From Maritalea myrionectae DSM 19524 (GTDB taxonomy: Bacteria; Pseudomonadota; Alphaproteobacteria; Rhizobiales; Devosiaceae): a DNA stretch of 64,000 bases. The stretch lies in contig NZ_AUHV01000003.1 in assembly GCF_000423365.1 (NCBI RefSeq), forward strand, positions 124,001-188,000, read 5' to 3'. Under the pieces are notes generated by a model that was not told the DNA's origin, made no database searches, and worked only from the letters and a program-made list of their open reading frames with translations. The translations under genes and the position numbers were made by a program. Shown in pieces: positions 1,800-19,371 of the stretch; the stretch's first letter is position 1; every line of letters begins with the position of its first letter.

Positions 1800-3653
1800 C
1801 TAAAACGCCTGCATAAGGCGATCAAGCAGTTCTTGCGCGATCGACATCACCCGCGCATTGGCGGCATAGGCGTTTTGAAGTTGCAGCAATTTGCCCATCT
1901 CTTTGTCGATGTCCACGCCATAGGCATCTTCCGCTCGCATTTCCAACGTTTGGATCAGCTTGCCTTGATGCTCATGCGCTTGCTTTGTGGTGGCAATGTC
2001 ATTGCCTTGATAATTGAGCGTTTGCCGCACAATTTCCTCAACGCTACCATTGAGGCGAAATGCCCCCTGCCCTTGCGCGGCACTCTCGGCCCGAAAAGTC
2101 ATCGAATTCAATCGATCGACCAAATAGTTGGGTCGATCTGAATCCCCAATTGGCGTTAATGGTGAGGTTGAATGCTGCACCAAAAGGCTATTGTCGGCCA
2201 CCACCTCCTGGTTCACCATCATGCGCAAAGCAAAGCCGCGCTTTTGCGACACACCATCCAACGAGTTTGTGAACGCGCCTGAGGTATCAACAAACAGCGA
2301 CATGCCAAGGCCGCCATCCTGTGTGCCGGTCGCTGTTGTTTGCACCACCATTGAATGAATGTCGGACGTATCGGCCACGCCATCATCCATGATGCGCAAA
2401 ACATCACCCGCAGGATTAGAAACGGTGACAGCAGCGCCCAAAGCCGCATTCAAGTCAGTCGCAACGGCCCCAATGCCGCCGGAAAAATCCAAGCCAATGG
2501 TGCGCAGCCCATTTTCATCAGTGCTGTCCATCGGCAGTTTGGACGCATCGTCAACGCGCACCACGCGCACGGTTTGTTGCGCGCCGCCAACTTCATATTT
2601 TACCGTAAAGCTGTTGCCGGGCAGCATATTGCCCAAATCAGCTTCAAAACCATCTTCCCCACCCGCCGACACGGCTGTGCCCTCGGTATCAATGGTCGAC
2701 ATGGCTTGCGCCAACCCAGCGGCAATTTCATCCAACTGATCTTGAGCGGTCACCAACCGGTTATCACGCAGATCAAGAAGTGACGAAATCCGCCCTGATG
2801 TCAGCAGGTCATGGGCCACCACATCAATTTCGAGATTGGCTGGCGTCACCACTTTCAATGTGCCAACGCCGCTCGTGGCTGGGTCCACATCATAAAGAGA
2901 TGTCGGCGACAGGCTGCCCGCATTTTCGAACTTGAAGGTGGAGTGTTTTTCACCATCGAGCAATCCGACGCCGGTCTTGGTCATCACATTGATGGTGCCA
3001 TTGTCGTTATATTGCACATTGATGTCGATCAGCTCACTCACCTGTGCCAGCAGGCGGTCACGATCATCCATAATACTCAGGCGAGTGTCATCGACCTTTG
3101 TGGTGTCCATCAACTCTTGGTTGATCTTGGACAACAGCTCCAAATTCTGGTTCAGATCCGACACATGAGTGAAGATCTGGCTTTCCGTCTCTTGCCGCAT
3201 GCCTTGCACCGACCGAGACAAAAAGTTCAGCGATTCCGCCATGCTCTGAGCACGATCCACCACATCGGCACGCGCCACAAAGTCTTCGGGGCTCGTTGCC
3301 ATTTGCTGCAACGCCCCTTTGAAGTTCGCAAGTTGGGTATCCAGCGAATTGATGTCGCCGGGCTTACCCAATAGCAGCTCAAGCCGCCCTAAGAATTCTG
3401 TGCGCACATCCAGCGCACCCATAAGGCTGGTTTCGCGCTGCGTTTGTGATTCCAACGATTGTACATAAGCGCGCTGAATTTGCGCCACCCGCACGCTGGA
3501 GCTGGTGCCGCGATAATTATCAATCAGCGCAACGCTTTGTCGGTGATAGCCAGGCGTTCCCGAATTGGCAACGTTTCGCGAAACGATGTCCAGGCTACGC
3601 TGGTTTACATCCATCCCCGATAAAGCATTACTCAATGTTACAGAAAGGCCCAT
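1800..3653 (-). CDS. flgK: Flagellar hook-associated protein 1 (FlgK)
   Basis: A 617-residue protein with the conserved N-terminus of rod/hook proteins (SVTLSNALSGMDVNQRSLDIVSRNVAN), the FlgK-typical GTPGYHRQ that follows, and the C-terminal QLQNAYAANARVMSIAQELLDRLM that packs into the axial core. FlgK is exported by the flagellar type III apparatus and forms the first junction ring between hook and filament. Length is within the usual 450-650 range. It sits between flgE and flgL on the minus strand; a hairpin terminator separates it from flgE, so it may be expressed partly by read-through from flgE. Confidence 0.92.
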   Translation of the reverse strand: MGLSVTLSNALSGMDVNQRSLDIVSRNVANSGTPGYHRQSVALIDNYRGTSSSVRVAQIQRAYVQSLESQTQRETSLMGALDVRTEFLGRLELLLGKPGDINSLDTQLANFKGALQQMATSPEDFVARADVVDRAQSMAESLNFLSRSVQGMRQETESQIFTHVSDLNQNLELLSKINQELMDTTKVDDTRLSIMDDRDRLLAQVSELIDINVQYNDNGTINVMTKTGVGLLDGEKHSTFKFENAGSLSPTSLYDVDPATSGVGTLKVVTPANLEIDVVAHDLLTSGRISSLLDLRDNRLVTAQDQLDEIAAGLAQAMSTIDTEGTAVSAGGEDGFEADLGNMLPGNSFTVKYEVGGAQQTVRVVRVDDASKLPMDSTDENGLRTIGLDFSGGIGAVATDLNAALGAAVTVSNPAGDVLRIMDDGVADTSDIHSMVVQTTATGTQDGGLGMSLFVDTSGAFTNSLDGVSQKRGFALRMMVNQEVVADNSLLVQHSTSPLTPIGDSDRPNYLVDRLNSMTFRAESAAQGQGAFRLNGSVEEIVRQTLNYQGNDIATTKQAHEHQGKLIQTLEMRAEDAYGVDIDKEMGKLLQLQNAYAANARVMSIAQELLDRLMQAF

Positions 3654-7444: not shown

Positions 7445-7550
7445 CGTCATTACCGGGCTTGACCCGGTAATCCATGCAGCACCCGATATGCATGCACCCA
7501 CATCTCCCCACCCACCACGTCATTGCAAGACTTGATCTTGCAATCCATTT
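7445..7550 (+). repeat. Two CGTCAT-hairpin-ATCCA palindromes
   Basis: One copy at 7445-7475 (stem TTACCGGG/CCCGGTAA) and one at 7519-7550 (stem TTGCAAGA/TCTTGCAA), both in the same orientation. Both keep the family flanks CGTCAT on the left and ATCCAT on the right while the stem sequence differs with compensating changes on both arms. Confidence 0.8.
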
Positions 7551-9512: not shown

Positions 9513-9702
9513 CGTCATTGCAAGACTTGATCTTGCAATCCATTTCACGACAAAGCTCGGTACGAAACAAATGCCTTTCCGCTTCGCCGACCCCACACAC
9601 CGTCATCCTCGGGCTTGACCCGGGGATCCAGACAGGAACAACCCAAGGCGCACAAAGCAAATAGAAGGCCACATCTGGATTCCCGCCTTCGCGGGAATGA
9701 CG
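9513..9702 (+). repeat. Three extragenic palindromes, two forming a convergent pair
   Basis: Copy 1 at 9513-9546 (TTGCAAGA/TCTTGCAA), copy 2 at 9601-9630 (CGTCATCCTCGGGCTTGACC... ending ATCCAG), and copy 3 at 9675-9702 in reverse orientation (CTGGATTCCCGCC... ending GAATGACG). Copies 2 and 3 face each other across 44 bases of non-coding sequence, the same outer ends that surround the GIY-YIG gene at 17.5 kb. Confidence 0.8.
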
Positions 9703-9717
9703 ACCGAAATGGCCGCG

Positions 9718-10266
9718 TCAGACATCCGTCACCCGTCGCGCCTTCACCTGCCGGATCAACTCCACCGCCTCCGCAGGTGGCTTCTGCTCCACCCGCAAAT
9801 AGTCCGATCCATCCTGATTGCGGGTCAGCATCCCCAGCCCAACCATCATCCGGCGCAATAACGCCGCATCGCCAAAGCTGTGCACCTGATCCAGCCGCGC
9901 ATTCACCTCACGCTCATGCAAATGTTCCCCTTTGGGCAGGGCCGCCCAAAACAGCCAGATGCAATTCTCCTGCACCCGCTGTCGCGAGGGCCAACGGTGC
10001 ATCACACCCGCAGCATCAATATGCTGCAAACAGCGCGACACCATCGCATGATCAATCTGCGCAGCCTCCGCGCCATCAGCCATTTTCTGGCCCGACTTAT
10101 GCGCCGCCCGCATATGTTGGAAGTTGCGAAACCCCGCCGCACGCGCCAGCATATTCATCAAGCTGAGATGGCTCGGCACCGCCTCATCCTGGCTCAATTG
10201 CTTGGCTAAACTGCGAGAAAATTGAGAAATATCCGCTGCATAAAGCGGAATAGATTGCTTTGTCAT
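9718..10266 (-). CDS. DUF2087-domain protein
   Basis: A 182-residue soluble protein whose C-terminal ~80 residues match the DUF2087 pattern: FWAALPKGEHLHEREVNARL, then FGDAALLRRMMVGLGMLTRN and a YLRVE end. The N-terminal ~65 residues are helical (SQFSRSLAKQLSQDE...) and may be a DNA-binding or adaptor part. DUF2087 occurs fused to HTH domains in regulators, so a regulatory role is possible but unproven. It is a single-gene unit with AGGA upstream of the ATG, flanked by palindromes on its downstream side. Confidence 0.75.
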   Translation of the reverse strand: MTKQSIPLYAADISQFSRSLAKQLSQDEAVPSHLSLMNMLARAAGFRNFQHMRAAHKSGQKMADGAEAAQIDHAMVSRCLQHIDAAGVMHRWPSRQRVQENCIWLFWAALPKGEHLHEREVNARLDQVHSFGDAALLRRMMVGLGMLTRNQDGSDYLRVEQKPPAEAVELIRQVKARRVTDV

Positions 10267-10581
10267 TTTACATTCCTAGCTGCCGCATCGAATGTCGTTG
10301 GTCGCTGACTTAACGACGCGGCATTGAATATAAAACCCAAATGCATTGCGTGAATTAAAGCAGATTTAGCACTCCAAACCCGGAGCAGCGACGCCTTGGT
10401 GTTCTGCCAACCATGATTTCTTCATATTCAATTACCGACGAAAACTCAATAACCAGTAGGATTGAAATTGGAATGTTAATAATTGCCGCATGACGCTCGC
10501 CCATCAGTCAACATTTTATTGACTGAATTTCAACGAGGACATATTTCTTGCAATAATTACAACAATTACTCCGGATATTTG
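10267..10581. other. Intergenic gap, AT-rich, no gene seen
   Basis: The 315 bases between the divergent DUF2087 gene and the small membrane protein become AT-rich from about 10320. No convincing gene or strong hairpin is visible. It presumably holds the two divergent promoters. Confidence 0.5.
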
Positions 10582-11049
10582 ATGACTTTTGATTTTAGTC
10601 TAAAGCGATTTTTATTGGTTTATTTCTTGGTGTTTTCGGCGCTTTGTTTTGCATCATATTTAATGACATTTTCTGCACTAAAAACGATTACCGCAGTAAA
10701 CTACCTTCTCTTAATCGCCGCAGCAGCTGCTGCATTTGACACTGGCTACCGCTGGATTAATTCAAAAAGTTCGCCTATAGATAGTGACAGCTGGACGCAG
10801 GCGAAAAAGATGACTTTAGTCGAGATTTTTGCGTCCCTTCCTGTCATGGCCATACAGTTATTATTGTTTCTAATCCTAACTGGTCCGCACGAAATCAGCG
10901 GCTTTTCACCTATTTACGCCATTGTTGGCATTATACTCGCGGCACTTAGCCTAGCTTTTTTCTATCTGATCAGCATGGCCGCGAAACGTTTTAGCTTTAA
11001 ACAAGGTGCTAAGTTTGCACACTCTCGCCGCACAGGCCAAAACAAGTGA
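10582..11049 (+). CDS. Small four-helix membrane protein, unknown function
   Basis: A 155-residue protein with four predicted membrane helices at about residues 8-28, 33-51, 80-102 and 110-133. The segment AAAAAFDTGYRWINSKSSPIDSDSW between helices two and three resembles the small uncharacterised ABZJ_00895 family, but I am not sure of this. The ATG at 10582 is chosen because the hydrophobic core starts soon after and GGA lies seven bases upstream; the open frame extends further back without support. The gene and its upstream region are clearly AT-richer than the GC-rich ycjX that follows, which suggests acquisition by transfer. Confidence 0.6.
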   Translation: MTFDFSLKRFLLVYFLVFSALCFASYLMTFSALKTITAVNYLLLIAAAAAAFDTGYRWINSKSSPIDSDSWTQAKKMTLVEIFASLPVMAIQLLLFLILTGPHEISGFSPIYAIVGIILAALSLAFFYLISMAAKRFSFKQGAKFAHSRRTGQNK

Positions 11050-11140
11050 ATCAAATCACGAAGCTTTACGCCCAACCCCTTGCCCCATAAAATAAAATCC
11101 CTACCTTAAGGGGAGCATTTGAGTTGAGGAATCCTGCCTG

Positions 11141-12586
11141 ATGGCCAATTGGACCGATGAGACCCGCATCGCCCTGGATAATATGCGCGACAGCGTCACC
11201 GGTCTGTTTGTGCCCACCATTCGGCTGGGCGTTACGGGCCTGTCCCGCGCGGGCAAAACCGTGTTCATCACCTCGATGATTCAAAATCTGATCGAGGGCG
11301 ACAATCTCTCCCTGTTCGGGCCACTGGCTGAGGGGCGGCTGATTGGCGCGCAGCTCAGTCCGCACCCCAATGCCGCCATGCCGCGCTTTGCTTATGAGGA
11401 GCATTTGAAAGCCCTCAAAGGCGAAGATCGCCACTGGCCACAATCCACACGGCAGATTTCGCAAGTGCGGCTGACGCTCAAATTCCAGCCCGATCATTGG
11501 GCCACCGCTTGGGCAGGACCGCGCGAAGTGCATCTGGATATTGTTGATTATCCCGGCGAGTGGCTGCTCGATTTGCCCCTACTCGACAAAAACTATCGCG
11601 AATGGTCGGACGATGCGTTGCAAAAGGCACACGCCCCTGCCCGCGCCAATATCGCTGAATCCTGGCTCAATCTCACCTTGAAGGCAGATGCCTCTGCCCC
11701 GCTGGATGAAGAGCTGGCCACGCGCCTCTCCAACGCCTTTAAAGCCTATTTGCAGGCCTGCCGCGCTGATGAACATGCCTTGAGCGCCCTGCCGCCCGGC
11801 CGCTTCCTGATGCCCGGCGATATGGAAGGCTCCCCCGCCCTCACCTTTGCGCCACTGCCCGCGCCGGACGCCACGCCGAAAAGCGACAGCCTTTATGCGC
11901 AAATGGAGCGCCGCTACGAGGCTTACAAAAACATCGTGGTGCGCCCCTTCTTCCGCGATCATTTCGCGCGGCTCGACCGTCAGATCATTCTGGTCGACGC
12001 CCTCACCGCGCTCAATGCCGGCAGCGACGCGGTGACGGATTTGGAAAAAGCCCTCGGCGAAATTTTGATCTGTTTTAAAACCGGCAACAATCCGCTGTGG
12101 ACCAGCTTTTTCTCCACCCATATCGACAAGATTCTGTTTGCCGCCACCAAGGCAGACCATATGCCCCACACCAATCATGATCGGTTGGGCGAAGTGTTGG
12201 GCCTGCTGGTCAAAGGTGCGCGCCAACGCGCCCATTATCAGGGGGCCGAAACCCAATCCATGGCCCTCGCCGCCATCCGCGCCACCCATGAGGGGGAAGT
12301 GGAACACGAAGGCAAAATGCTCAAAACCATCATCGGCACGCCGCAAAAGGGCGAAAGCCTGGGTGACAAAACCTATGACGGCACCAGCGAAATCGCTCTA
12401 TACCCCGGCAACTTACCGGAAAACCCGGAATCAATTTTTGAGGACGAGCAAAGCTATAAGGGCAAGCTCAAATTCCTCCGCTTCCGCCCGCCCGTGCTCG
12501 ACAATGCCACCCGGCAAAAATCCGGCCTGCCCCACATCCGGCTGGACCGCGCGCTCGATTTCCTCTTGGGAGATAAATTGCAATGA
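11141..12586 (+). CDS. ycjX: YcjX-family P-loop GTPase
   Basis: A 481-residue protein of the YcjX family, conserved stress-associated nucleotide-binding proteins. The P-loop GLSRAGKT is at residues 33-40 and the sequence VDYPGEWLLDLPLL supplies the switch/Walker B region. The family is co-regulated with phage-shock genes in enterobacteria; in alphaproteobacteria it pairs with the YcjF/DUF697 membrane protein, as here, where the stop overlaps the next start as ATGA. No psp genes are visible. The biochemical target is unknown. Confidence 0.88.
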   Translation: MANWTDETRIALDNMRDSVTGLFVPTIRLGVTGLSRAGKTVFITSMIQNLIEGDNLSLFGPLAEGRLIGAQLSPHPNAAMPRFAYEEHLKALKGEDRHWPQSTRQISQVRLTLKFQPDHWATAWAGPREVHLDIVDYPGEWLLDLPLLDKNYREWSDDALQKAHAPARANIAESWLNLTLKADASAPLDEELATRLSNAFKAYLQACRADEHALSALPPGRFLMPGDMEGSPALTFAPLPAPDATPKSDSLYAQMERRYEAYKNIVVRPFFRDHFARLDRQIILVDALTALNAGSDAVTDLEKALGEILICFKTGNNPLWTSFFSTHIDKILFAATKADHMPHTNHDRLGEVLGLLVKGARQRAHYQGAETQSMALAAIRATHEGEVEHEGKMLKTIIGTPQKGESLGDKTYDGTSEIALYPGNLPENPESIFEDEQSYKGKLKFLRFRPPVLDNATRQKSGLPHIRLDRALDFLLGDKLQ

Positions 12587-13605
12587 CCGATCCGTTCGCC
12601 GTCGATCTCTCCCCCAAGGACGAGAAGAAAAAGCCCGAAACAGACGAGATTGGCCCGCTGGCCTTTGAGGTCGATCAGGCCATCAATGTCAGCACCGAGA
12701 TTGAGCCGGAGGCAGATCTCGCCACCGCGCCAAAACGTTCCTTTTGGCCGCGCCTGTTCTGGGGAAGCCTCAGCCTGCTGATCACCCTCGGCATCGGCCT
12801 GGCGCTCGAGCGGCTGGTGCGCGATCTGTTCAGCGCTTATCCGGCCCTCGGCTATGTCGGCCTCGGCCTTGTCGCGCTGATGGTGGTCGCCCTGTTGGGC
12901 CTCATCATCCGCGAATTTCTCGGCCTCCGCCGCCTCAAAACCCTCGCCAAGCTGAAGCACGAGGCCAGCGCCGCCCACAGTGGCAAAAACCTGCCCGAGG
13001 CGCAAAAGGCGGTGGAGCAACTCCGCGCCCTTTATGACGGCAACCCAGCCATGGCCCGGCAATTGGCCGAGTTTGACCGCCACGCCAAAGACATTCTGGA
13101 TGGCGACCAATTGCTTGAATTTGCCGAGCGCACCCTGCTCGTCCCGCTCGATCAAAAGGCCAAAGCCATCATCGCCAATTCCGCCCAGCGCATTTCGCTG
13201 GTCACCGCCGTCAGCCCCCGCGCCTTTTTTGACATTATGTTCGTGCTCTATGAAGCCGCGCGCCTCACCCGCCGCATCGCCCAGCTCTATGGCGCCCGCC
13301 CTTCCTTTTTCGGCTTTATTGAAATGTCGAAATCGGTGATGGCCCATCTGGCGCTCACGGGCGGCGTCGCCCTGGGCGACAGCGTGGTGCAGCAATTGCT
13401 GGGCCACGGCCTCGCCGCCCGCCTGTCCGCCAAGCTCGGGGAAGGGGTGATCAACGGGTTGATGACCGTGCGCGTCGGCATCGCCGCCATCGCCGTGATC
13501 CGCCCGCTGCCCTATATGCTGAAAAAAGGCCCCGCGGTCAGCGATTTCCTCCCCGCCCTCACCAGGCTGGCGAAAGATCAGGATCAAACCGAAAACGCGT
13601 CCTAA
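12583..13605 (+). CDS. ycjF: YcjF/TIGR01620 family membrane protein (DUF697)
   Basis: A 340-residue inner-membrane protein. An acidic N-terminal cytoplasmic stretch (DLSPKDEKKKPETDEIG) precedes two membrane helices at about residues 55-75 and 88-110, then a cytoplasmic region and a C-terminal hydrophobic segment with TVRVGIAAIAVIRPLPYM. This is the usual layout of YcjF/DUF697 proteins. It overlaps ycjX by four bases and is translationally coupled to it, so the products probably work together. Its stop codon overlaps that of the convergent DUF899 gene by four bases. Confidence 0.85.
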   Translation: MTDPFAVDLSPKDEKKKPETDEIGPLAFEVDQAINVSTEIEPEADLATAPKRSFWPRLFWGSLSLLITLGIGLALERLVRDLFSAYPALGYVGLGLVALMVVALLGLIIREFLGLRRLKTLAKLKHEASAAHSGKNLPEAQKAVEQLRALYDGNPAMARQLAEFDRHAKDILDGDQLLEFAERTLLVPLDQKAKAIIANSAQRISLVTAVSPRAFFDIMFVLYEAARLTRRIAQLYGARPSFFGFIEMSKSVMAHLALTGGVALGDSVVQQLLGHGLAARLSAKLGEGVINGLMTVRVGIAAIAVIRPLPYMLKKGPAVSDFLPALTRLAKDQDQTENAS

Positions 13606-14294
13606 GCGCCATATTCATCCCGTCGGCGCACCCACGCCATCGTATAATCCAACTCGGCTTCGTCACGCCCCTTTGGCGCCATATCGAGATAGGCATAAAC
13701 GCTGTTCACGGGCTCAACGCCACGGCCAAATGTTGAATAGGTGTGGTAGATGCCCTCATCGTCTTTGTAAAAAGCGCTAATCCCCGGCCGCTCGCCCACA
13801 AGGTCAGGTGCCGGACGATAATTATACTGCTTATCCGGCTGCGCTTCCTCAAACGACACGCCAAAATCAAAGTTAAACGGGCTGCTGGCCGCAGAGACCC
13901 AATCGAAACGCCATCCCATCCGCTTTCGATAAGCCTGCAACCGATCCAACGGCCCGCGCGACACCACTTTGAACGCCACATTGCGCGCCGCAAAATGCGC
14001 GTCATTGCCATCAAAGCTATCGGCCCAAAAGGAACAACTCGGGCAACCGGCTTCCCAGTCCGGCCCATACATAAAATGATAGATCAACAACTGATCATGC
14101 GGCCCAAACAAATCCTCCAATCGCTCCGGTCCCCGCACCGTTTCAAACGCATAATCCTTATCCAGTTTGACAAAGGGCAGTTTGCGCCGTGCTGCCGCCA
14201 CCTCATCCTGAAGCCGCATCAACTCTTTCTCCCGCGCCAATAATTCTTGTCGCGCCTTCAACCATTCCTGGCGTTCCACAACTCGCTTGTCCAT
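13602..14294 (-). CDS. DUF899 thioredoxin-like protein
   Basis: A 230-residue DUF899 protein: an N-terminal helical hairpin (EWLKARQELLAREKELMRLQDEV), then a thioredoxin-like fold with LIYHFMYGPDWEAGCPSCSFWAD, where the Cys-Pro-Ser-Cys pair occupies the redox-active position, and the conserved end FGRGVEPVNSVYAYLDMAPKGRDE. The family is often annotated as dithiol-disulfide oxidoreductase-like, but the substrate is unknown. It is a stand-alone gene, tail to tail with ycjF, with AGGAC upstream of the start. Confidence 0.85.
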   Translation of the reverse strand: MDKRVVERQEWLKARQELLAREKELMRLQDEVAAARRKLPFVKLDKDYAFETVRGPERLEDLFGPHDQLLIYHFMYGPDWEAGCPSCSFWADSFDGNDAHFAARNVAFKVVSRGPLDRLQAYRKRMGWRFDWVSAASSPFNFDFGVSFEEAQPDKQYNYRPAPDLVGERPGISAFYKDDEGIYHTYSTFGRGVEPVNSVYAYLDMAPKGRDEAELDYTMAWVRRRDEYGA

Positions 14295-14412
14295 AAGAAG
14301 TCCTCCGACCTAAGTGTGCATACCTTATAGGTCGCTTGGCAAATCGCAATTTCGACACAAGGTGACGACTTTTGCGCTTGACTGGTTGGACCAGTCCGCC
14401 TACTCCAAATCA

Positions 14413-15618
14413 ATGAGCATCTTTGTCAAGCATCGCGCCTTTTTGCGCTCGCCCTATTTTATGCTGATCCTCATGGCCATCGCCATGCAGTTCAGCTTTG
14501 CCGCATGGCAAAATTTCCTCAACAATTTCGCCCACGATAAGGCCGCCTTCACCGGCGCCAATATGGGCTTGCTGCAATCTATTCGGGAAATTCCGGGCTT
14601 TCTCGCCTTCACCGCGGTGTTTGTGTTGCTCCTTTTGCGCGAGCAAACCTTTGCCCTGATCTCGCTCGCCCTCCTCGGGCTAGGCGTTGCCGTCACCGGC
14701 TATTTCCCCACGCTGACGGGCCTGTTGATCACCACCTTCATCATGTCCGTGGGCTTTCATTATTATGAGACGATGAACCAGTCTTTGCAGCTGCAATGGC
14801 TGCCCAAGGCAACCGCGCCACGCCAATTGGGCGTTATTCTCGCAGTTGGCTCGTTCGGGCAATTGATGGTGTTCGGCTTGATCATCTGGCTCTATCAATG
14901 GGCCAAACTGCCTTATACAGCCTTGTTCGCCATTTTCGGCGGCCTCACGCTGGCGCTGGTGGCCTTTATGGTCTTTTGGTTCCCGCAATTTAAGGAAGAC
15001 GTGCCGCAGATCAAAAAGATCGTGCTGCGCAAACGCTATTGGCTTTATTACGCACTCACCTTCATGTCCGGCGCCCGCCGCCAAATCTTTGTGGTGTTCG
15101 CCGCCTGGATGATGGTGGAAAAATTCGGCTTTGAGGTGCACGAGGTCTCCATCCTCTTCCTCATCAATGTGGCGTTCAACATGTATTTCGCGCCCAAAAT
15201 CGGCGCCGCCATCATCCGCTTTGGCGAACGCACCGCCCTCACCATTGAATATATCGGCCTGATCTTGGTGTTCACCGCCTATGCGTTCGTGAATGACCCT
15301 ATCCTCGGCGCCAGCCTTTATGTGATCGACCATTTCTTCTTCGCACTGGCCATTGCGCTGAAAACCTATTTCCAAAAAATCGCCGACCCCCGCGACATGG
15401 CCCCCACCGCCTCCGTCGCCTTCACCATCAACCACATCGCCGCCGTGGTCATCCCGGTGGTGTTTGGACTCATCTGGATTACCAACCCTGCGGCGGTGTT
15501 CTTAGCGGGTGCGGGCTTCGCGTTTATCTCGCTGTTGTTGGCAAGATTAATACCGCGCCATCCGATGGAAGGGCACGAGACGGTGTTGGGGAAGAAGGCA
15601 GTTGTTGTTGGGGAGTAG
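14413..15618 (+). CDS. Major facilitator superfamily transporter
   Basis: A 401-residue integral membrane protein with about 12 hydrophobic helices in two halves and a basic loop (FPQFKEDVPQIKKIVLRKR) between helices six and seven, the typical MFS topology. The ATG at 14413 is preferred because the first helix follows at about residue 14; the longer frame adds 33 polar residues. Neither start has a strong ribosome site. No substrate can be assigned. The gene ends seven bases before the stop codon of the convergent reverse transcriptase, so this is one edge of that AT-rich insert. Confidence 0.82.
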   Translation: MSIFVKHRAFLRSPYFMLILMAIAMQFSFAAWQNFLNNFAHDKAAFTGANMGLLQSIREIPGFLAFTAVFVLLLLREQTFALISLALLGLGVAVTGYFPTLTGLLITTFIMSVGFHYYETMNQSLQLQWLPKATAPRQLGVILAVGSFGQLMVFGLIIWLYQWAKLPYTALFAIFGGLTLALVAFMVFWFPQFKEDVPQIKKIVLRKRYWLYYALTFMSGARRQIFVVFAAWMMVEKFGFEVHEVSILFLINVAFNMYFAPKIGAAIIRFGERTALTIEYIGLILVFTAYAFVNDPILGASLYVIDHFFFALAIALKTYFQKIADPRDMAPTASVAFTINHIAAVVIPVVFGLIWITNPAAVFLAGAGFAFISLLLARLIPRHPMEGHETVLGKKAVVVGE

Positions 15619-15624
15619 CTAGCG

Positions 15625-17208
15625 TCAATCGTTTAAGCTACCAACAACTTCGTCAAACTTTTCATGTTTAGATATTACCCAGTCACAATATAGCTTTTTG
15701 ATATCCGAGAGACTACCAGACAATCTCGATTTTGCTGCTCTAATCCAGATTTCAAATTCATCTTTCGGCAAACAAGATGCACCCAGCAACAAAGCATTTA
15801 GCTCAAATTCTGAAAACTGACTAATCTTGGTTTTGTTTTGCCTAAAATAGGCGACATTATTAATAGAAGCTTGCGCAAGAATAATTTGCCGACCATCTAG
15901 CTCTGTGAGACGTTCGACATGACGGAGTTTTCTTGGTGTTGTTGGTATAATCTTCCGGATGTACAACTCGATCAGCCATGCCCTGATGGCGGGAACACTG
16001 TGTCCTGCGCCGCTGGAAAGACATTTCAGAACTTCGTCGCCAAATCGAAACTCTTCAAAGTTCACTTTGTCCTTTAGAGCATCAAACAACAGGACAATAT
16101 CGCGTATAAAAGAAAGAAGATGCTCAAAGTTTTCTACAATGTATTCAACGCAATCCGCGCGCTCAGTTAGTCTTAATGCACGAAATATTGCCCTAATTTT
16201 CCCAAAGTCCCATTGCTCCCTTTCAAGTTGCTCTTCAAGCATACCAACCAAGTTCAATGCTCTAAGTTGTTCCAACTCCTCTTCACTTGGCTCATCTTCA
16301 TCGAAGTAGATCGAACGCACAAGAATATTGAATGCATCCTGCTCGGCCTTTTCAAAAGTATCAGTGGCTTCCTCCTCCAGAAACGTTCGGTACTCTTCGC
16401 GATCAAGAACGCGAGTTTTCTGCGCATTCAAAGTCAAACCTTCTGATGCCAAAGTCTCTGCAACAACTGCTAGTACCGAATAAGGGTCTTCGTCCTCCTC
16501 GATGTAAATTCTCATATCATCGACAAATCTCGTATAGGGATATTCCTCCGATAATATATGATGATCGAAATCGGTTAATACCGCTTCAGCAATGAGCCTT
16601 GATGCGGTGCAACCAACTGGAATACCATAACTTTGCTTGGCTCGAATTGCCTTTATAACTCTTTCTATTAGATTTATCACTTTTTGATTGGGAGAGGCGG
16701 TTCGAAGCACATTCTCAATTCGATGAAAATAAATTCGTTGATAAAAATCCGCTATGTCTGTGAAGATTACTTGGTCAAATGTTGAGTCGGCTTCATAATC
16801 AATTTGCCATTCAATCCAATCTTTGAAGGTATGACCGACCTCAAAAATAGATCCATCCCCTTGGTCTTTAAATCTGTAGGCAAATGGACCGAAGTCACTA
16901 TCTGACACTTTAAGCTGTTCAAGTTCAGCACCGACTTCAATAACCGCCGCAGTAAAAAAAATTGTGTCAAGATATGGCAACTGATGGGCCACCCGAAACC
17001 CATATCGGCTCTTTGGTGCCAATACTTCAACTGAGCCCGTTGGTGAAAAAGAGTTTAAATCTATTTGCTGTATTTTCTCTACTAACTCATCCCGCATATC
17101 AGAAAAAAATCGTAGTTCGATTAGATGCGGAAAGATATCGGTATCTCCAAATCTAACTAGATGATCTATCGCTGACTCAACAGCCTGCTTACTTAAATGT
17201 GCACTCAA
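15625..17208 (-). CDS. Defence-type reverse transcriptase (Abi/UG group)
   Basis: A 527-residue protein. The start is taken as TTG at 17208, which has GGAGAG five bases upstream; the open frame extends 24 residues further without support. Residues 21-27 are GDTDIFP, followed by the reverse-transcriptase core: motif A DIADFYQRIY (151-160), motif B GIPVGCTASR (195-204), motif C FVDD (228-231, the YxDD catalytic site) and motif D LNAQKT (260-265). There is no maturase X domain, HNH nuclease or retron-type VTG motif, so neither a group II intron protein nor a retron fits. The C-terminal ~250 residues are helical. The features match phage-defence RTs; the subtype is not assigned. It is AT-richer than its neighbours. 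Confidence 0.8.
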   Translation of the reverse strand: MSAHLSKQAVESAIDHLVRFGDTDIFPHLIELRFFSDMRDELVEKIQQIDLNSFSPTGSVEVLAPKSRYGFRVAHQLPYLDTIFFTAAVIEVGAELEQLKVSDSDFGPFAYRFKDQGDGSIFEVGHTFKDWIEWQIDYEADSTFDQVIFTDIADFYQRIYFHRIENVLRTASPNQKVINLIERVIKAIRAKQSYGIPVGCTASRLIAEAVLTDFDHHILSEEYPYTRFVDDMRIYIEEDEDPYSVLAVVAETLASEGLTLNAQKTRVLDREEYRTFLEEEATDTFEKAEQDAFNILVRSIYFDEDEPSEEELEQLRALNLVGMLEEQLEREQWDFGKIRAIFRALRLTERADCVEYIVENFEHLLSFIRDIVLLFDALKDKVNFEEFRFGDEVLKCLSSGAGHSVPAIRAWLIELYIRKIIPTTPRKLRHVERLTELDGRQIILAQASINNVAYFRQNKTKISQFSEFELNALLLGASCLPKDEFEIWIRAAKSRLSGSLSDIKKLYCDWVISKHEKFDEVVGSLND

Positions 17209-17295
17209 GAACACTCTCCAAAACTTCTTTATGCCAATAGATTTTTGTTTAAAATCCGAAGTGTAAAACACTATCACCAATAGCGCCAGTCAAGC

Positions 17296-17345
17296 CCGAA
17301 TTGGAATGACTTTTATGATGAGGTGTGCCGAAAGTCCCACCTGGA
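17296..17345 (+). pseudogene. Remnant of the 3' end of a second GIY-YIG nuclease gene
   Basis: Translation in frame from 17296 gives PNWNDFYDEVC, matching the end of the intact GIY-YIG protein (PNWTDLYDVVC). DNA similarity continues past the stop position into TCCCACCTGG and the adjacent palindrome, alongside 17773-17820. Nothing upstream of 17296 resembles the rest of the nuclease, so the copy is cut off about 90 bases before the reverse-transcriptase start on the other strand. Confidence 0.7.
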
Positions 17346-17504
17346 TTCCCGCCTTCGCGGGAATGACGGTAGTGGGTGGCGCGGGGGCTGGGGAAAGCAA
17401 CCAGTGCGCGCGGCCGTTGCGACAATTGTGCCAAATAGGCAGCGTTGGTGGTTGCGGGAACCCTTCCCTCTCCCGTCATCCTCGGGCTTGACCCGGGGAT
17501 CCAG
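17341..17504 (+). repeat. Two extragenic palindromes flanking the space before the GIY-YIG gene
   Basis: Copy at 17341-17368 in reverse orientation (CTGGATTCCCGCCTTCGCGG... GAATGACG), directly after the GIY-YIG remnant, and copy at 17474-17504 in forward orientation (CGTCATCCTCGGGCTTGACC... ATCCAG), ending 18 bases before the intact GIY-YIG ATG. Each is identical or nearly so to its counterpart at 9601-9702. Confidence 0.8.
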
Positions 17505-17867
17505 TTAAGCGCAAATCAAGGCATGAGCGCTTTTGTCTACATCATGGCCAGCCAGAGGAACGGCACATTATATGTGGGCGTGACCAATGATCTGGTGCGG
17601 CGCGTGTGGGAGCATCGCGAAGGCCAGGTGGATGGCTTCACCAAGCAACATGATGTGAAAATGCTCGTCCATTACGAGCAGCACGACAATTTCGAAAGCG
17701 CCATCACGCGCGAAAAGACGCTGAAAAAGTGGAACCGCAAGTGGAAGCTAAACCTTGTTGAAAAGGGTAATCCAAATTGGACTGACCTTTATGATGTGGT
17801 GTGCCAATAGTCCCACCTGGTTTCCCGACATTTTGTCCTCGCGCCAGACGGTCGAGCGAGAATGACG
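17474..17867 (+). mobile_element. Candidate GIY-YIG/palindrome unit
   Basis: The left end is a CGTCAT-hairpin-ATCCAG palindrome (17474-17504); the right end is a reverse-oriented relative (CTGG at 17817 to GAATGACG at 17867). The GIY-YIG gene fills the interior, so both outer ends read inward as CGTCAT. A truncated second unit ends at 17296-17368 and a 102-base unit with the same end types but no gene is at 9601-9702. Mobility is inferred from this comparison; no target duplication was established. Confidence 0.4.
17523..17810 (+). CDS. GIY-YIG family nuclease
   Basis: A 95-residue single-domain GIY-YIG protein. FVYIMASQRNGTLYVGVTND carries the YI...YVG pattern that corresponds to the GIY and YIG strands, followed by the conserved Arg-Arg and the HREG helix, and EKTLKKWNRKWKLNLVE, typical of the COG2827/UPF0213-like group. 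These small proteins resemble the catalytic domain of UvrC and homing nucleases; biological roles of the stand-alone forms are mostly unknown. The ATG has AAGG upstream. It is bracketed by inverted palindromes and has a broken sister copy 440 bases to the left, suggesting a mobile unit. Confidence 0.88.
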   Translation: MSAFVYIMASQRNGTLYVGVTNDLVRRVWEHREGQVDGFTKQHDVKMLVHYEQHDNFESAITREKTLKKWNRKWKLNLVEKGNPNWTDLYDVVCQ

Positions 17868-17902
17868 GCGGTGGATGCGGGCAGCCCGTTCCCCTTCCCC
17901 GA

Positions 17903-18094
17903 CGTCACCCTCGGGCTTGACCCGAGGGTCCATGATGAGCTGGCCACGCAGGAAATGGGCATGTTCCCCAAATTGTTGAATACTGCTTGTGTAGAGATGC
18001 GGAACTGAAAGCGAAGCGGACGTTAGCGCATCTCGCGCACCTTGCGGCAAGTGGAACGGCGTCATGGATACTCGGGTCAAGCCCGAGCATGACG
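17903..18094. repeat. Convergent palindrome pair around 130 non-coding bases
   Basis: Forward copy 17903-17933 (CGTCAC, stem CCTCGGG/CCCGAGG, GTCCAT) and reverse copy 18064-18094 (ATGGAT, stem CTCGGG/CCCGAG, ATGACG). The interior 17934-18063 holds no open frame of note. Confidence 0.75.
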
Positions 18095-18469
18095 ACTGGT
18101 ATGTGGTCGCAAAATGCGCAATAAAAGCAACTTTAGGTTGAAACATGATATCACACACAAATATTCAGTTCCGCAACCAATTGCAATCAACCCACTGAAA
18201 AACCGAAATAACTTCACCCACCAAAAATCCAGCCACGCGTTGCACCACCATACCTCCCCCAAAAACTTATCCCCGCCCCCAAAACCCGTGGTAAAATGGC
18301 GCCATCTTCTGCCCCACGCGGTTGTTGACGGACAACGGGGTATATCTGTTTCCCTGTCGCGCAGTCGGCAGGATGCCGAGAACCGACGCAAACAAAGCGA
18401 TCGCATTCCCCTTCTGCCGGGCCAGCCTGTCCGGCGAGAGGACAGAAAATGCGATCGTAGCGACCGCTA

Positions 18470-18660
18470 TCGGCCCTCCAATTGGCGGGGGTGCCGGGGT
18501 AGTGAGCGTAGCGAACGACGGCGGCGCGTAATAATGCCGGGGGTGCTCGGCAGCCACGCGGCGTGAGCGCGTAAACTGCGAGCGTAGCGACCGCTGTCGG
18601 CCCTCCCATTATGGCGGGGGTGCCGGGGACGGGAGCGAAGCGACCGGTGGCGGCAATAAA
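18470..18660 (+). repeat. GC-rich ~50-bp repeats, locus 2
   Basis: Irregular copies of GGCGGGGGTGCCGGGG followed by GAGCGnAGCGA-type sequence and GGCGGC, seen at about 18484, 18535 and 18613. They are the reverse complement of the array after metA and match the array at 19192. More decayed than the other two loci. Confidence 0.65.
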
Positions 18661-19009
18661 CAGACGAATGAAGAAGCGGTTGGTGGGTCGGACGCGACGC
18701 ACCGCGCCTTTGATTTGATTGCGCCCGACACCGAGGGCGGGCCATCCGGTGCAACGCATCGGGGCGGCCGGGACTATTGGGTCAGCACCCCGCATAATCA
18801 GACCAAAACGCGAAAAACGCCGCTGGCGCGAGACGTGAACGGTCTCAATTCTCTGCGCAGCCACGAGCCCCGAAACGTCTCGTGCCCCGCAAACCTTGTC
18901 CCCTGAATGCATGTCGCATGTCAGGCGCTTTGGTGTGTCTGCGCGAATGTGCGCGGAAGCGGCAATGAAAATCCATCAACGTGCTGGCAAGGCACATCCG
19001 CCCCCACTA

Positions 19010-19138
19010 CGTCATTGCAAGACTTGATCTTGCAATCCATTTGAGTTGTCGGCTTGTAGGAGTTGCAGAGGTAAATATGCCACAGCTTCAGCAAGTCGAC
19101 AGGTGAAATGGACCCCAAGATCAAGTCTTGGGGTGACG
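19010..19138. repeat. Convergent palindrome pair around 66 non-coding bases
   Basis: Forward copy 19010-19042 (CGTCAT, stem TTGCAAGA/TCTTGCAA, ATCCAT) and reverse copy 19109-19138 (TGGAC, stem CCCCAAGA/TCTTGGGG, TGACG). Same convergent geometry as 9601-9702 and 17903-18094. Confidence 0.75.
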
Positions 19139-19191
19139 GCGGAGGGTGTGGCTTGTGGCGCGGAAAGCATTGGCGCGTGGCACGAGTCGGC

Positions 19192-19344
19192 GGGGATGCC
19201 GAGGTAGCGAACGCAGTGAGCGACGGCGGCACGTAAAATGCCGGGGATGCCGGGGACGAGAACGAAGTGACCGGTGGCGGCGCGTAATAATGCCGGGGAT
19301 GCCGGGGTAGCGAACGCAGTGAGCGACGGCGGCGCGTAAAAAAA
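19192..19344 (+). repeat. Tandem GC-rich ~51-bp repeat array, locus 3
   Basis: Three units beginning GGGGATGCC start at 19192, 19243 and 19295 (periods 51 and 52), each ending GGCGGC(A/G)CGTAAAA or GCGTAATAA. The last unit runs directly into the A7 tract that is the T-run of the ferredoxin terminator on the minus strand, mirroring the arrangement after metA. Confidence 0.8.
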
Positions 19345-19371
19345 GCCCCCATAAGCGCATACGCCGGGGGC
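19338..19371 (-). terminator. Terminator downstream of the fpr-ferredoxin genes
   Basis: On the minus strand GCCCCC (19371-19366), a 15-base loop and GGGGGC (19350-19345) are followed by seven T residues (19344-19338). It lies 107 bases after the ferredoxin stop, behind two further hairpins: a 12-bp perfect stem at 19433-19459 and GGCGCA/TGCGCC at 19401-19416. Confidence 0.8.

Follow-up and report, generated by a model that had tools for sequence, protein, structure and literature searches.

We consider it probable that the window, the 64,000-nucleotide stretch of DNA analyzed here (C2:124001–188000 of the 3.54 Mb genome of Maritalea myrionectae DSM 19524), carries a small mobile unit, composed of a hairpin with a CGTC tag, a GIY-YIG nuclease gene, and an inverted CGTC hairpin, together with gene-less relatives of this unit, and that the nuclease drives the spread of the hairpin ends. 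The palindromes fit the CGTC superfamily of repetitive extragenic palindromes (REPs). Such hairpins, dispersed in many bacterial genomes, repeatedly enclose the small GIY-YIG gene, whose product is a strong candidate for the so far missing enzyme behind their spread; both cutting and movement would be the work of this nuclease. The structure of the unit, the match between enzyme clade and repeat type, the dispersal of tag-delimited copies within one genome, purifying selection on the gene, and polymorphism of the sites are established here.

The GIY-YIG gene of the window (17523–17810, forward strand) encodes a single-domain protein of 95 amino acids, in which PF01541 is the only Pfam match (E = 1.6e-16, residues 4–77). 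Positions Y6, Y17, G19, R27, H31, and E64, which we take to be catalytic, are conserved at 98–100% in 175–177 relatives. The gene is under purifying selection (dN 0.03–0.05 vs dS 0.22–0.79 in four comparisons), and an internal stop was detected in 4 of 183 genes of its clade (clade A), which reaches up to 10 copies per genome. The left end of the unit (17474–17504, forward strand), detected by the scan, is identical to the CGTC-REP at 9601–9631, while the right end (17817–17867, reverse strand) is a degenerate hairpin with a long loop that was missed by the scan and recognized by eye. The corresponding right end in Maritalea mediterranea (L035) is a long-loop hairpin of the form CGTCATTCCCG...CGGGAATCCA, located 10 bp beyond the matched stretch. 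A truncated second GIY-YIG unit, as claimed in the original prediction, is indeed present: in a relic (17296–17351, forward strand), 49 of 56 bases agree with the intact unit at its 3′ end (E = 5e-17), and the right CGTC-REP end of the truncated unit (17341–17368, reverse strand) was detected by the scan and is identical to the copy at 9675–9702. Four genes of the genome match PF01541, including three small genes and one within a 630-codon frame, whose size suggests UvrC. All three small genes lie between convergent hairpins, in the window unit, in a unit at C1:376630/377000, and in a unit on C3; the window unit has a degenerate right end and the C3 unit a degenerate left end. The window unit is common to three genomes of the genus. 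At the site of the C3 unit, the intergenic DNA is not alignable with that of the closest genomes of the genus and thus provides no evidence either way on an empty site; no GIY-YIG gene is found there in G001 and G003, G005 carries one in the same orientation, and that of G002 is of a different type and lies on the other strand.

The pattern-plus-fold scan of the window recovered all eleven predicted CGTC hairpins as clean copies, seven on the forward and four on the reverse strand, and gave two further pattern matches without a proper stem (2844 and 34858). Most copies have a stem of 9 bp and a loop of five bases, and those at 9675 and 17341 have 8 bp and four bases. The predicted covariation of the stems holds: all 81 pair cells of the nine distinct sequence types are standard, both sides changed in seven of nine pairs, and the covariation score of 0.80 exceeds both the mean of the shuffles (0.31) and the highest value obtained on sliding the alignment (0.19). 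The first stem pair is A-T in all nine types, and the second is T-A in six and C-G in three. An unpaired CGTC tag occurs in all eleven copies, although the search patterns require the tag and partly impose the loop and tail of the copies found; the tag is unpaired because column 4 (C) stands opposite column 28 (C).

Besides the two copies at the GIY-YIG units, the window contains a tandem of two forward copies (7445–7475 and 7518–7548) and a forward copy at 9513–9543, in tandem with that at 9601. Of the four convergent pairs originally proposed, three are formed by clean copies, and the fourth, around the GIY-YIG gene, depends on the degenerate right end. The gene-less pair at 9601–9631 (forward) and 9675–9702 (reverse) has the end types attributed to it, its left end being identical to 17474–17504 and its right end to 17341–17368; by eye, its interior holds no clear gene relic, and its likeness to the GIY-YIG unit lies in the ends only. 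Another gene-less pair is formed by 17903–17933 (forward) and 18064–18094 (reverse). The third pair is heterotypic, with a TTGCAAG-type copy on the left (19010–19040, forward) and a CCCCAAG-type copy on the right (19108–19138, reverse), a pairing of types that occurs at four places in the genome. Genome-wide, the exact pattern gave 33 copies and the reversed-pattern control none. Neighboring copies no more than 400 bp apart comprise eight convergent, two divergent, and three tandem pairs, against a mean of 0.12 and a maximum of two such neighbors in 2000 draws of random placement, so that pairs are far commoner than copy density predicts.

By inspection, the unit ends and the dispersed solo copies share the same stems and the same first inner bases, such as TGTAGCGG in copies of the TTACCGG type and AGCAGC in those of the CTCGGG types. 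Among 30 copies, the first ten bases agree at 0.57 inside and 0.44 outside between copies of the same type, and at 0.30 inside and 0.39 outside between copies of different types. The ten bases outside the CGTC tag (L005–L034) are thus alike even across types (0.39 vs about 0.28 further out) and look pyrimidine-rich; this likeness perhaps reflects a target preference. A further family of dispersed repeats, of which the genus has many copies, is represented at 18478–18546 and 19103–19347 of the window.

The bracketing of GIY-YIG genes by convergent hairpins extends to relatives of the window gene. A scan of an 84,980-species collection yielded at least 519 relatives among 589 stretches, and the best 80 were kept, whose record titles name many phyla. 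The finder required GTCR, a stem, and an NCCA tail, and convergent hairpins within 250 bp counted as a pair. Genes with incomplete flanks or runs of N were left out (80 reduced to 77 for the strict finder and to 76 for the NCCA and NCCN finders; 158 to 145 in a larger set; 205 to 193 in the clade sorting below). Among the best 80 of the at least 519 relatives, a convergent pair was detected at 43 of 76 genes and a hairpin on one side at 21, while control positions on the same contigs gave a pair in 4 of 3136. The result was similar with the strict finder (43/77 vs 1/2739) and the NCCN finder (45/76 vs 26/3136). In the larger set, 69 of 145 genes had hairpins on both sides, 36 on one side, and 40 on neither, with control pairs in 2 of 2339. 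An inverted-repeat score of at least 14, which takes no account of the tag, was reached by 105 of 145 genes and 4 of 435 controls; the direct-repeat score reached the same value in 81 of 145, because palindromes must give it. The units are compact: in 85 units with both ends (NCCA finder), the median length is 407 bp (10–90% range 360–540, minimum 341), and the start codon lies a median of 23 bp from the hairpin before it and the stop codon a median of 13 bp from the hairpin after it.

The type of repeat follows the clade of the enzyme. When 193 genes were sorted by best query and scored with the lax finder (NCCN tail), CGTC hairpins formed a pair at 89 of 172 clade A genes and stood on one side of 46, with none recognized at 37, so that GIY-YIG homologues of this clade do not generally lack such ends; a finder of the same kind gave 26 pairs at 3136 control positions. 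Type-2 palindromes, by comparison, formed no pair at the 172 clade A genes (one side, 2). In clade B, CGTC pairs occurred at 0 of 13 genes (one side, 2), and type-2 (CCTCATCCTGAGG-type) palindromes stood on both sides of 8 and on one side of 5. Enzyme clade and repeat family therefore go together, CGTC pairs with clade A and other palindromes with clade B; the CCTCATCCTGAGG...CTCGAAGGATGAGG palindromes on both sides of the gene can be seen in L316, L317, L319, L320, L327, L328, and others. The three clade C genes all have inverted repeats of other kinds. The UPF0213-like groups D and E, of which one member each matched UPF0213 structures (E = 6e-16 and 7e-11), gave a pair at 0 of 5 genes (one side, 2 of 5). 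Twenty loci of distant GIY-YIG genes from the same genomes served as controls, one of which had no match, 18 full flanks, and 19 a score for inverted repeats; a CGTC pair was found at 0 of 18 (one side, 1) and other inverted repeats at 6 of 19. In a tree of 205 proteins, clade B forms one side of a branch (support 87), and clade A needs two changes; the tree is based on 95 columns only, and long branches that meet drew a warning from the program. Loop type requires eight changes on the protein tree, where shuffling gave 21 on average and never fewer than 16, but host ancestry is uncontrolled in this comparison, which is therefore not used as main evidence.

Bracketing is thus not universal in clade A. 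As for the 37 without one, Sinorhizobium meliloti has a variant tag, and others may truly lack a hairpin. Palindromes near GIY-YIG genes of Sinorhizobium and Rhizobium (L116, L117) are tagged CTCAT, not GTCAT, and no such palindrome was seen by eye within 260 bp upstream of the Rhizobium tumorigenes gene. In a Neisseria gonorrhoeae record (L115), a clade A gene is surrounded by numerous CGTC hairpins of dRS3 type, the nearest flanking copies of which do not form a convergent pair. On a plasmid of Planktothrix agardhii (L364), a GIY-YIG gene has an MmeI-type restriction gene on one side and the DISARM gene drmA on the other.

Dispersal of the whole unit can be seen in a Caulobacter genome, where two copies (L230 and L235) share 85% identity over 458/462 bp. 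The match begins at the left CGTC tag and ends at the right one, and the flanks are unrelated, with identity at background. In G009, copies L128 and L299 are 94% identical over 416/428 bp, with a match that continues about 14 bp beyond the right tag; one of the two has an internal stop. Several sites are polymorphic, and the sites examined for insertion are intergenic. At the site between fnrL and a response regulator gene on Sphingobium plasmids, 11 records have both sides, and seven of them carry the unit as judged by coverage; three of these were read, one having a frameshift in the gene. Among the four records without the unit, two have one fused palindrome, which follows CGTCACCCCGGGTCAAGCCCGGGGTGACG exactly in one record and closely in the other, and the remaining two have other sequence. 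Azospirillum lipoferum carries a block of REP pair, gene, and REP pair between sufB and sufC, and 11 other Azospirillum records have both sides with a shorter gap, the four that were read being without the block. In Shinella, the unit is present in three records and absent from two others that were read. Occupied and empty sites exist in all three genera, but none of the empty sites is base-exact.

Gene-less forms were found in the dnaN-recF gap of Rhodopseudomonas, for which 16 genomes were searched and 15 gaps read, the other lying at a contig break. Two gaps hold a full unit, common to the two genomes, and four hold both hairpins without the gene but with a relic of its 3′ end, accompanied in G062 by a relic of the start. 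Internal deletion is the best reading of these four sites. The original interpretation is supported, and these relics illustrate the autonomous/non-autonomous relationship that it proposed, with the qualifications that the 9601–9702 pair resembles the GIY-YIG unit in its ends only and that movement by the nuclease is inferred. The other nine gaps comprise four with a hairpin pair of another type, three with a DUF559 gene between CCCTCTCC palindromes, and two with palindromes and no gene. The DUF559 gene (PF04480, E = 6e-36) lies between long inverted palindromes of the CCCTCTCC type at L255:2065–2442 and in the gaps of G066, G067, and G070, while the gaps of G059 and G061 have such palindromes without the gene; a matching inverted repeat was found at one of four plasmid DUF559 loci. 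DUF559 with CCCTCTCC palindromes may be a parallel system.

A mechanism can be proposed in which the ends of the unit, about 340–540 bp in size, are hairpins with outward CGTC tags on which the GIY-YIG protein would act both in cis and in trans. The hairpin would extrude during replication, as a single strand or a cruciform, and the cognate nuclease would recognize tag and hairpin and nick or cut near the outer tag. Enzymes of the GIY-YIG superfamily hydrolyze DNA without a covalent intermediate, and therefore host repair or replication would have to copy the unit into, or join it at, another intergenic position, in many cases next to a REP already there. Internal deletion would then produce a gene-less hairpin pair that may still be mobilized in trans by the nuclease.

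Several observations weigh against a mobile unit driven by its nuclease. GIY-YIG enzymes alone are not known to transpose DNA. Inspection by eye of the outer 15 bases in the two unit pairs (Caulobacter and G009) shows no target duplication, and no base-exact empty site was found in Sphingobium, Azospirillum, or Shinella, where short segments differ. Even the lax finder recognized no hairpin at the 37 of 172 clade A genes mentioned above, and in the larger set of 145, divergent hairpins also flank the genes more often than controls (23/145 vs 1/2339). The co-occurrence of gene and repeat is mixed evidence. Across 290 alphaproteobacterial genomes, scored for CTTGA-loop hairpins only and with one protein query (E 1e-12), the clade A gene was detected in 98 and the hairpins in 75; the gene is present in 47 of 75 genomes with at least one hairpin and in 51 of 215 without (odds ratio 5.4, p = 2e-9). 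This supports a link that weakens with copy number: among genomes with at least 20 hairpins the gene is present in 8 of 15 (p = 0.16, not significant), and the clade A gene is missing from 12 of 35 genomes with at least five hairpins, including a genome that has 122 hairpin copies. In such hairpin-rich genomes the REPs may have outlasted the gene or may be served by another enzyme.

Three other readings were considered. In one, the gene encodes a free-standing homing endonuclease whose target is an existing convergent CGTC pair: the enzyme would cut within the pair, the gene would be copied into the space between the hairpins, and the hairpins, which would not be the ends of a mobile unit, would spread by another route. 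The block between sufB and sufC, in which the gene stands between two REP pairs, would suit this reading, as would the reuse of the Rhodopseudomonas dnaN-recF gap by different repeats and the existence of palindrome-rich genomes without the gene. We nevertheless regard it as unlikely, given the compact units with short hairpin-gene spacing and the homology of the Caulobacter pair, which extends to the outer tag on either side and no further, as it should if gene and hairpins move together. The same dispersed copies with unrelated flanks, together with the site polymorphism, the patchy presence in 98 of 290 genomes, and the several copies per genome, make it very unlikely that the protein is a domesticated housekeeping enzyme processing hairpins, for instance by resolving extruded ones, in an immobile unit whose hairpins regulate or terminate the transcript. 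Purifying selection in four comparisons agrees with that role, and so does the sharing of the dnaN-recF unit by two Rhodopseudomonas genomes and of the window unit by three of its genus. Mere coincidence, with genes and hairpins accumulating in the same intergenic hot spots, finds some support in intergenic gaps that collect unrelated repeats, but we give it hardly any credence in view of the 4 pairs at 3136 same-contig control positions against 43 of 76 among the best 80 of the at least 519 relatives, and of a repeat type that follows the enzyme clade.

Should the unit prove mobile, host repair and a hydrolytic nuclease of about 95 residues would be enough for DNA to spread, and the origin of a large class of gene-less repeats would be explained. 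We lean slightly towards the broader view that small stand-alone GIY-YIG nucleases are general motors of RAYT-less REP families across bacterial phyla, each clade with its own hairpins (CGTC including dRS3, the CCTCATCCTGAGG family, and others), and that the bracketed unit of about 340–540 bp, which encodes one protein of 95 amino acids and lacks a transposase, is an autonomous mobile element and possibly the smallest one known.

According to its 2013 description by Di Nocera, De Gregorio, and Rocco, the CGTC-tagged REP superfamily includes Neisseria dRS3 and Rickettsia RPE-4/RPE-6 and is characterized by an unpaired CGTC (or TGTC/CCTC) tag, a stem of 8–9 bp with A-T almost always as the first and second pairs, a loop of 4–5 bases, a CCA tail, and predominantly HH dimers (PMC3733652). 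The window hairpins share the tag, the stem of 8–9 bp, the loop of 4–5 bases, and the CCA tail. According to the same paper, no transposase genes are associated with these repeats, a dedicated transposase is apparently absent, and the question is left open (PMC3733652). The window differs in having a GIY-YIG gene between two hairpins, and the paper does not contain the word GIY-YIG. CGTC REPs are widespread, and their describers identified no enzyme for them in 2013 (PMC3733652); a clade-matched nuclease makes the question testable. Among the papers listed, no title or abstract opening that joins GIY-YIG genes with REP hairpins was found in a search that had preprints and most subscription journals outside its scope, so an earlier report is possible; in the texts searched, "GIY-YIG" and "repetitive extragenic palindrom" appear together in one paper only, in unrelated passages.

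Among known GIY-YIG proteins, UPF0213 (1ZG2, 1YWL) is likewise a single-domain form and matches the window protein weakly (E = 5e-4 and 8e-4, ranking below five apparently spurious matches to repetitive WD-40 chains), but its relatives in groups D and E, unlike clade A, have no bracketing pair (0/5). Free-standing GIY-YIG homing endonucleases spread their own gene by cutting DNA, and the window gene resembles them as a predicted GIY-YIG nuclease that may spread its own gene; it differs in its 95 amino acids, which leave no room for a separate DNA-binding domain, in its bracketing by REPs, and in its several copies per chromosome. Unlike an insertion sequence or a miniature inverted-repeat transposable element, the unit has no target site duplication visible by eye in the two unit pairs. 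RAYTs, as described in the 2013 paper, are HUH tyrosine enzymes with GTAG-tagged repeats (PMC3733652). The resemblance to REP sequences and RAYTs suggested in the original prediction holds for the way the system appears to work but not for family membership: the enzyme is GIY-YIG rather than HUH and the tag CGTC rather than GTAG, while inverted hairpin pairs, a bracketed enzyme gene, gene-less pairs, and an enzyme tied to its repeat type are shared with the REP/RAYT system of REPtrons and REPINs.

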